64,000 bases of DNA from Xanthostigma xanthostigma (lineage: Eukaryota; Arthropoda; Insecta; Raphidioptera; Raphidiidae). The DNA lies in NCBI GenBank assembly GCA_963575645.1, contig OY754466.1, positions 15,602,001 through 15,666,000 on the forward strand. Direction: 5' to 3'. This document shows, piece after piece, positions 24,251-26,452 of the stretch; positions within the stretch are counted from its first letter, which is position 1, and each line of letters starts with the position of its first letter. The position numbers and the translations under genes were made by a program. The notes beneath the pieces were generated by a model. The model did no database searches. It saw only the letters and a program-made list of their open reading frames with translations, and was not told the DNA's origin.

Positions 24251-24550
24251 ATTAATTGCTAGCTATTTTAAAATATACATGGGCGTATATGTGTGTATCA
24301 TTGTATGTATGTAAAAAATAGCGTAAAGTATTCGTGGATAACTGGTCTTTAAAACACTTGCTCTATTTCAAGCACTCCGGCTGCGCTGTCGTGCCGAGCA
24401 CTCCGGTTGCGCCGTCGTGCCGAGCAGTTTTAAACGATATTCAGTTTTTTTACATCCTCGATCTAGATATATGGTTGTTAAGTTCGTTGCGCCATCTATT
24501 GAATATTCACTCAATCCAGTCAACAGCCCGACTGGAAATTAGTTCAGGGA

Positions 24551-24960
24551 ACCCGGATCATGATCAGATCCGGATCAGATTTTCCGGATCAGATTTTCTG
24601 GATCAGTTCCGGATCAGAGTACAGTACTCCATCCTTTGATCTGGTCATCTGATCAGTTCCTGATCAGAGTACAGTACTCCATCCTTTGATCTGGTCATCT
24701 GATCAGTTCCTGATCAGAGTACAGTACTCCATCCTTTGATTTGGTCATCTGATCAGTTCCTGATCAGAGTACAGTACTCCATCCTTTGATCTGGTCATCT
24801 GATCAGTTCCTGATCAGAGTATAGCACCCCACCCCTTGATTTGGTGTTTTGATCAGAAACTGATCAGTGTTCAGTACTCTTTCCCTTGATCCGGCTATCT
24901 GATCAGTTTCTGATCAGAGTACAGTATTCTATTCGTTAATCCGAAACTGGAACTATAGTT
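24551..24960 (+). repeat. 50-bp tandem repeat array, GATCAG-rich
   Basis: GATCAGTTCC or a variant recurs at exactly 24601, 24651, 24701, 24751, 24801, 24851 and 24901, so the period is 50 bp. Each unit includes GATCAGAGTACAGTACTCC. The first units are near-identical and the last two diverge (GATCAGAAAC, GATCAGTTTC). A shorter GATCCGGATCAGATTTTC iteration precedes the array at 24556-24600. Confidence 0.85.
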
Positions 24961-24996
24961 ATATAATAATAATATATATAATAATATTTAGATAAG

Positions 24997-25625
24997 AGCT
25001 ATTCAATAGCATTTCTCAAAAATTAGGCACTTTGCAGGCTGATGTTGATGCATTAAAATGTGGCCTTTATCGTTTGGTACATTCCAAAACTACTTGGCCT
25101 AGTGTCAGAGAAGAACGAAGACGTTTTCTTCAATTGCCTTTCAAAACAACAGCAGATTTTGAGAAGTTGGAGGATTCCTTAAAAGAGGAAAAATTAAATC
25201 AAAAGGATGAATTAAAAAATGAAATTGTAAGTCAATTACCAACTAGTTTTTATCTTATTATTTTACTATTATTTTGTAAAAATACAATCTTATTGTAGGA
25301 AAACATTGTATGGCAAACAGAACTTTGATGCAGAATTTGACAGACGTAATGGCAAAATTCTTTACAGCTGATGTGTTCAACCAATTTACAGCCCAAAAAC
25401 AAACTGGAAATAAAACTGTTTTCAAAAGTACTGAGTTTGGTTCATGTTTATTTGGTAAATATTAATTATATTTTTCTAAAATATTTATTTTCAGTTTTAT
25501 AATTGTTGAATGTTCCAGATATCATGCGTAACGATTTAGAAGACCATGGAATCAGGTTCAAAGATAAAGAATTTTATGATACTGTTGGCAAAATCATAAA
25601 CAATGCAAAAACTTGGACTTCATAA
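24997..25625 (+). pseudogene. DUF4806-like protein gene with two introns, partial and frameshifted
   Basis: Exon 1 (open from about 24997 to 25226) encodes KCGLYRLVHSKTTWPSV and LPFKTTADFEKLEDSLKEE, then meets a GTAAGT donor. Exon 2 (25299-25454) follows TTGTAG and ends at GTAAAT. Exon 3 (25519-25625) follows TTCCAG and ends TWTS before TAA. The exon 2-3 junction splits a GAT codon and keeps the frame (CLF-DIMRN). At the start of exon 2 the reading ENIV needs a one-base shift near 25310 to join NRTLMQNLTDVMAKFF, so this copy looks broken, or the splice model is incomplete. The LPxKTxxxFxxLExxL motif and the helical C-terminal part match my memory of DUF4806, a family of unknown function multiplied in arthropods. 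No start codon is evident; the 5' end may lie in the lost or repeat-filled left part. Identification is from pattern memory. Confidence 0.6.
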
Positions 25626-25784
25626 TATAAAAATAATCAATAATAATTAAATTCACTGTTTGAAAATATATCCACTTTAAGTGTACTAGTATAAGCTTAT
25701 AACTATAAATAAAATTAAGGGAAAATGGTAATATTTCGTTAATTATTTAAGGTCCAATAATTATCCAAAAATTAATCCTGATCC

Positions 25785-26035
25785 TTCAAACGGATCTGGT
25801 ATGGATCTTTCAGCCGGATTGGGCATGGATTTTTGAAACGGATCCGGTATGGATCGTTTAGTTGGGTCCGGCATGGATCTTTGAAACGGATCCGGTATGG
25901 ATCTTCTAGTTGGATCCGGTATGGATCTTTGAAACAGATCCAGTATCGATCTTTTAGTCGGATCCGGCATGGATCTTTAAGACGGATCCGACACGGATCT
26001 TTTTAATGGATCCTGTGCGGATCATATATGGCGTG
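25785..26035 (-). repeat. 24-bp minisatellite, GGATCC-rich, in-frame 8-residue repeat
   Basis: Roughly ten units alternate ATGGATCTTTGAAACGGATC and ATGGATCGTTTAGTTGGGTC types. On the minus strand each unit reads as 8 codons such as RSIPDPFQ or RSMPDPTK, giving an open frame at 25761-25970. The open frame follows from the 24-bp period and is probably not a protein. Its role is more likely a subterminal binding-site array, mirroring the GATC-rich left array. Confidence 0.75.
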
Positions 26036-26452
26036 ACGATTTTTCATCATATCCGGATCAGAAAGCCTGATTTGTCCCTGATCAGTCTTCAGGCAATTCT
26101 GATCCGGATCGGATCCCATACTAAACCTAATTTCCAGTCGGGAGGTATTGCCATCTTATATGGTTGTTAAGTTCGTTGCGCCATCTATTGAATATTCACT
26201 CAATCCAGTCAACAGGTTCGCCATCTTATATGGTTGTATTATGACTGTCAAGGAATAGACAAATAATTTGCAATAAAATAATATTGCGACTATAAATTGA
26301 AATGTAAGCTATCCTATCTTTCAAGTTGGGCCGAATTGCACACGGTGTGCAAATCAAATTTAAAATCGGTTCAGTAGTTTAGGAGTTCATCGCGGACAAA
26401 CATGTGACACGTAATTTTTATATATTAAGATTAACTTCGACGTAATTCGGCC

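Follow-up and report, generated by a model that had tools for sequence, protein, structure and literature searches.

A short element in Xanthostigma xanthostigma contig OY754466.1 raises the question of what kind of mobile unit encloses spliced exons between inverted ends, and of what these exons might do for it. The element occupies positions 24527..26142 (1,616 bp) of a 64,000-nt window, the window being the whole stretch of DNA analysed. It had been predicted to be an undescribed-looking DNA transposon, a coherent mobile unit in which perfect 16-bp termini and GATC-rich arrays flank a spliced DUF4806-like gene, with no recognisable transposase.

The termini are as perfect as predicted: CCCGACTGGAAATTAG is present in inverted orientation and with zero mismatches at both edges of the element, while matches to it with up to three mismatches averaged 0.27 in shuffled windows, two or more being found in 3 of 100. 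Searching the host assembly (623 Mb in 28 contigs) for the same ends, a check proposed together with the original prediction, we found 22 perfect termini arranged as 11 facing pairs, which delimit units of 1,295–1,630 bp. Ten of the 11 units are flanked by a 2-bp target duplication (TC, TT, AG, AG, AC, AT, AG, AT, TA and TA), compared with agreement in 11 of 110 mismatched flank pairs used as a control; the only unit without one, L017, has unlike flanks (AC and GT). These paired copies and their target duplications establish that the element is a DNA transposon, in line with the prediction, and rule out a chance inverted repeat. Pairwise identity between units, with the rearranged copy L007 excluded, is 98.8–99.9% over gap-free columns, a sign, in our reading, of recent movement.

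The window copy is inserted at a host repeat, with copies of the 59-bp repeat on both sides; the neighbouring host repeat reads CAACAG-GTTCGCC and the occupied site CAACAG-element-AG-GTATTGCC. About 100 bp to the left of the element lies a 26-bp tandem repeat (2.2 copies, window positions 24371-24426). When up to two mismatches were allowed, the terminus matched 186 places in the genome and its reversed control pattern 57. Many of the inexact places, among the matches listed, read ACCGACTAGAAATTAG and were judged by eye to be another repeat, and among eight inexact places (L023–L030) a GATC array was present in L024 alone. Phage DNA records yielded no match; a single terminus match in a viral contig (L041), located in phage-like repetitive sequence, was judged by eye to be due to chance.

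The GATC-rich arrays were also recovered. All 46 GATC sites of the element lie in its flanks, 23 on each side, and none in the middle, whereas the window outside the element has a background of 2.07 per kb and at most five in any 400 bp. Within the arrays we recognised a motif that the original prediction had not named, GATC-N4-CC[GT]-GATC, which comprises two GATC sites 11 bp apart. Picked post hoc from the arrays, it occurs six times in the left array (plus strand), five times in the right array (minus strand) and nowhere else in the 64 kb, counts that are not independent within one array because part of the motifs arose by tandem duplication (on the left, four of six are identical). Its main value is that it ties together two differently built arrays, between which its orientation is inverted.

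Table 1. Features of the element and its insertion site (window positions).
Feature	Position	Strand	Details and basis
Host flank: left-hand 59-bp direct repeat within ~70-bp tandem unit	24468..24526	+	100% identity to 26157-26215
Left target duplication AG	24525-24526	+	Target-duplication table
Left terminal inverted repeat CCCGACTGGAAATTAG	24527..24542	+	Exact match; end identical in 11/11 units
Left subterminal array, 50-bp units, 23 GATC	24543..24940	+	Repeat analysis; six GATC-N4-CC[GT]-GATC on + strand
AT-rich deletion junction of 1.6-kb form	24941..24991	+	Comparison of copies
Exon A, DUF4806-like part one	24992..25226	+	Acceptor TTTAG before, donor GTAAGT after the exon; spliced-frame analysis, Pfam
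Intron 1, 72 bp, GT-AG, phase 0	25227..25298	+	Spliced-frame analysis
Exon B, DUF4806-like part two	25299..25454	+	Spliced-frame analysis, genome search
Intron 2, 64 bp, GT-AG, phase 1	25455..25518	+	Spliced-frame analysis
Exon C, C-terminus and stop codon	25519..25625	+	Spliced-frame analysis, genome search
Right subterminal array, 24-bp units, 23 GATC	25771..26126	-	Repeat analysis; five GATC-N4-CC[GT]-GATC on - strand
Right terminal inverted repeat	26127..26142	-	Exact match to CCCGACTGGAAATTAG
Right target duplication AG	26143..26144	+	Target-duplication table

Between the arrays, the predicted multi-exon structure stands as regards splicing, but not as an intact gene at this locus. A spliced frame of 168 codons, running through both GT-AG introns, is open in 4 of the 11 copies (L003, L009, L011 and L017), while the frame is shifted in L013, L015 and the window copy. 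The window copy is unable to encode the spliced protein: it shares with L013 a 2-bp insertion at the beginning of exon A, which creates an in-frame stop, and a private 13-bp deletion shifts its frame in exon B. Furthermore, exon A starts at a splice acceptor and the coding frame has no ATG upstream of exon B; the gene is therefore 5'-truncated in the units that retain exon A. Copies L013 and L015 also have private 2-base tandem duplications in exon A (AG, TA), which resemble transposon excision footprints. Using genome searches, in which match counts are lower bounds, we found at least 9 matches to exon A, in 7 units (E ≤ 0.01), and at least 11 each to exons B and C, in the 11 units (E ≤ 0.1). 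None of the matches listed at those thresholds lay outside the units, which bears out the predicted association of the gene with the termini.

Comparison of the copies revealed three internal forms, with both ends common to all. Exons A–C are kept in 7 of the 11 units, including the window copy (1,564–1,630 bp), and three units of 1,295 bp lack exon A. The third form, represented by L007 (1,429 bp), is also without exon A but retains another 5' stretch, continuing at the left into a further GATC-bearing stretch and a 31-codon ATG frame (MVFVRCSSEDCLCPELDHNIEF...). What had been taken for a coherent mobile unit is thus indeed a transposon, but an incomplete internal-deletion derivative, neither self-contained nor equipped with a complete gene. 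As anticipated, no transposase was recognised inside the short units, and searches of the 623-Mb assembly with the terminus, the left end and the exons found no parent element with CCCGACTGGAAATTAG ends. A 23-base left-end pattern (up to three mismatches) matched 12 places, against 0 for its reversed control, namely the 11 short units and one old fragment on C11. This old left end (L031:201-400; G000:C11:3430443 onward) is ~80% identical to the family, and 10 kb of sequence contained no match to the right end (E ≤ 0.001). Just downstream we noted by eye a CLN3/battenin-like exon, and the fragment may adjoin a host gene exon.

All 11 units have CCC at both termini. CCC ends have been offered, as a suggestion, for animal TRC elements of three species, and 7 of 14 SmTRC1 copies have a 2-bp duplication (PMC1636069); both traits are also reported for Spongebob/EnSpm-4N1_HM (PMC4298943). 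On the basis of these shared ends and duplications, the unit fits by structure a described kind, the TRC elements of the CACTA superfamily, which revises the prediction of an undescribed-looking transposon. Subterminal repeats that are inverted between the ends, a CACTA trait, are likewise present in the unit.

Transposase_21 was detected at two loci in the genome, on C4 (37.1 bits, above the cut-off) and on C12 (28.1 bits, just below the cut-off of 28.6). The C4 protein, an 845-codon frame that scored 34.1 bits as protein, has further relatives on C1, C2, C10 and C12. We rejected both the C4 and the C12 locus as the parent: within 20 kb around each we detected neither a CCC/GGG end pair whose 2-bp flanks agree nor paired GATC arrays, and the 168-aa protein had no match there. 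The C4 locus contains a short 15-bp repeat with GATC and, downstream, a 63-bp tandem array. Its 845-codon frame (L066:6948-9482), with no TIRs or second gene recognised nearby, is possibly a domesticated transposase, and a decayed relative of it lies at C2:27564438-27566817. On C12 (G000:C12:16881000-16900999; L068, L069), a CACTA-type transposase gene is interrupted by what appears by eye to be a non-LTR retrotransposon. A 459-bp tandem array at L067:4273-7507 (7.1 copies, 95% matches) contains five 91-codon open frames.

The original prediction had also proposed a search for longer relatives encoding a transposase. None with CCCGACTGGAAATTAG ends was found, but an element on C10 with a different TIR does encode a CACTA-type transposase. 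This C10 element (G000:C10:11379259-11387186; 7,928 bp) has the 12-bp TIR CCCAGGTAGGAA with TA on both sides; inside, a left array (8.4 copies of a 72-bp unit) precedes the transposase and a multi-exon gene encoded on its strand, and a right array follows them. The transposase, a 628-aa frame, is similar to the Transposase_21 protein of C4 (E 5.5e-17) and, searched alone, had no match in Pfam. The array motif, CCCAAGYYT, occurs 8 times in the left array (plus strand), once in the middle, and twice on the plus and six times on the minus strand of the right array. The CCCAGGTAGGAA left end recurs with other flanks in two more copies, the right ends of which were not found in the stretches examined, although the C1 copy has a right array; both ends are delimited in one C10-type copy only. 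The multi-exon gene of the C10 element recurs in the C1 copy, again downstream of the transposase, and was not found next to the third copy of the transposase. Adjoining the C10 left end are a Harbinger-like transposase frame (L082:988-1815, minus strand) and a MADF-like frame (L082:1804-2265, plus strand), named by eye, so that one transposon lies next to or in another.

Among superfamilies with 2-bp target duplications, ISL2EU and Mirage are candidates for an origin of the unit outside CACTA, with the TRC-type C10 element merely a look-alike. Such an origin would agree with the failure to find a transposase with CCCGACTGGAAATTAG ends and with the differences in TIR (beyond CCC) and array motif, GATC-N4-CC[GT]-GATC being absent from the C10 element. 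We nevertheless consider it unlikely, given that the combination of a CCC core with a 2-bp duplication is reported for animal TRC elements (PMC1636069, PMC4298943) and that the C10 element matches the unit both in its inverted subterminal arrays and in its spliced 3' gene.

The last two introns of the C10 second gene have phases 0 and 1, the same as in the window family, and the exon between them measures 178 nt, versus 169 nt in intact window-family copies. Alignment of the two proteins is weak, its score being reached by 19 of 2,000 shuffles (global) and 50 of 2,000 (local), and places both introns about four columns apart. In combination, element position, intron phases, exon size and the weak alignment suggest that the two second genes are homologous. 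In the C10 copy the first exon of this gene is read in two frames, and the gene is probably not intact. Its correctly spliced end did not match DUF4806, and a shorter piece that included one erroneous additional residue did so at 13.0 bits (E 0.13); its N-terminal part we take to resemble DUF4806 proteins.

These data also bear on the idea that the exons are host DUF4806-like gene fragments, captured in the manner of Pack-type elements and serving no role in transposition. Capture could account for a gene that is 5'-truncated, and for the 7 of 11 copies that are frameshifted or lack exon A. It appears improbable in view of the absence of the three exons outside the units among the matches listed, and of the multi-exon gene that an independent CACTA-type element has at the same place in two copies.

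We then compared the intact spliced product (168 aa) with Pfam. Its match to DUF4806 (PF16064) extends over exons A and B and covers profile positions 6–89 of 90, with a score of 17.9 bits (E 0.004); the predicted likeness of the three-exon translation is thus retained along nearly the whole profile, at a score below the 25-bit gathering cut-off. The window join scored 22.7 bits, in a frame that is not given by the window's splice sites. Ten controls were run, the reversed protein and nine shuffles; half of them matched some Pfam family, with a best score of 15.8 bits, and none matched DUF4806. Exon A alone had no Pfam match, and exons B and C alone matched SpoIVA_C (16.3 bits) ahead of DUF4806 (13.3 bits). 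A search of the genome with the PF16064 profile gave 0 matches at E ≤ 0.001, but it also picked up 0 of 14 controls, so that its silence carries no weight. No protein relatives were confirmed among 43 pattern matches in viral and 594 in prokaryote contigs, and the seven sequences of solved structures at E ≤ 1 (best E 0.11, RNase III) were taken as chance.

Overall, we regard it as probable that the unit is a young non-autonomous deletion derivative of a TRC-type CACTA transposon, the second, DUF4806-like gene of which would have encoded a TnpA-like array binder. The displacement of the introns by about four columns and the preference of exons B and C for another family weaken this case slightly. 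In the parent, the two arrays would have enclosed a transposase gene and, 3' of it, a second multi-exon gene, with the product of the latter ending in a DUF4806-like, perhaps BEN-type, domain. Gap repair after excision may have deleted the middle, and with it the transposase together with the second gene's 5' exons, leaving both ends and the last exons, and the derivative would be mobile when transposase is supplied in trans. The parent's second protein would bind the GATC-pair motifs, oppositely oriented at the two ends, and draw the ends together for the transposase, like TnpA in maize En/Spm. In the maize system, TNPD and TNPA are both required, TNPA binds subterminal repeats, and deletion derivatives are mobile if cis sequences are kept (PMC2613891). 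The same paper stresses how little such second proteins resemble one another from element to element. The original prediction had envisaged the exon A–C product as a DNA-binding factor for the arrays; the C10 relative and the plant CACTA precedent lend some support to this, and by analogy the second protein may both bind DNA and act in transposition.

Compatible with this explanation, the kept exons might encode a truncated repressor or titrator of transposition, for which the KP elements of the Drosophila P system are a precedent. The 168-codon frame is open in 4 of 11 copies despite loss of the element middle, and TNPA has a suppressor function on defective Spm elements (PMC2613891). We assign this role a low probability, however, as a long product would require an upstream start, there being no in-frame ATG before exon B, and the copies, at ~99% identity, are too similar for open frames to indicate selection.

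A tentative extension of the array-binder explanation, which we regard as possible, is that DUF4806 proteins are the animal counterpart of plant TnpA: they would be BEN-type proteins encoded by TRC/CACTA elements and binding paired array motifs, with stand-alone host genes as leftovers or domesticated derivatives. Pan et al. (2023) reportedly placed DUF4806 among BEN DNA-binding domains. PMC11075544 refers to that study for DUF4806 as a subtype of BEN DNA-binding domains. DUF4806 proteins are enriched in some insects and multiplied in Hydra, with counts of 69 and 54 in two Hydra genomes versus 0–6 in that table's five remaining columns (PMC7642931). The literature passages naming DUF4806 yielded no link to transposons and no role in transposition.

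As a transposon family alone, the unit is ordinary: the family is new but of a known kind, and the novelty would lie in the proposed type of second protein. For animal CACTA elements the transposase has been described, while the other proteins, in the passages of the SmTRC1 paper on parts outside Transposase_21, have no detectable conservation (PMC1636069). A DUF4806-type protein may help such transposons to recognise their own ends, as hinted by the longer relative with both kinds of gene. If the second protein is indeed of the DUF4806/BEN type, an orphan domain family would gain a testable function and its expansions, for example in Hydra, an explanation; the array motif, with its two GATC sites 11 bp apart, would suit a binding assay.

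Among known systems, the animal TRC elements (SmTRC1 and the Aedes and Tribolium TRCs, PMC1636069; Spongebob/EnSpm-4N1_HM, PMC4298943) resemble the unit in their CCC termini and 2-bp duplication, and in SmTRC1 there are also copies that are truncated, transcripts that are spliced, a region of tandem repeats and a second product that is short and TnpA-like (PMC1636069). The window unit differs from them in lacking a transposase, in its own ends and arrays, and in the DUF4806-like domain proposed here. With maize En/Spm and its derivatives and soybean Tgmt*, it has in common subterminal arrays and deletion derivatives, and those systems pair a transposase with a repeat-binding protein; they differ in their CACTA ends, in the 3-bp duplication made by Tgmt*, and in their TnpA-type proteins, which the passages of that source do not assign to DUF4806 (PMC2613891). 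The DUF4806 profile itself is matched near full length across exons A and B, albeit at a sub-threshold score, and the passages on this domain mention no role in transposition. Finally, the C10 element is larger (7.9 kb) and carries a transposase, and its TIR beyond CCC, its array motif and its only marginally similar protein set it apart, but it shares with the unit the CCC TIR, the 2-bp duplication, a mostly inverted array motif, a multi-exon gene at the 3' side and the phases of the last two introns.
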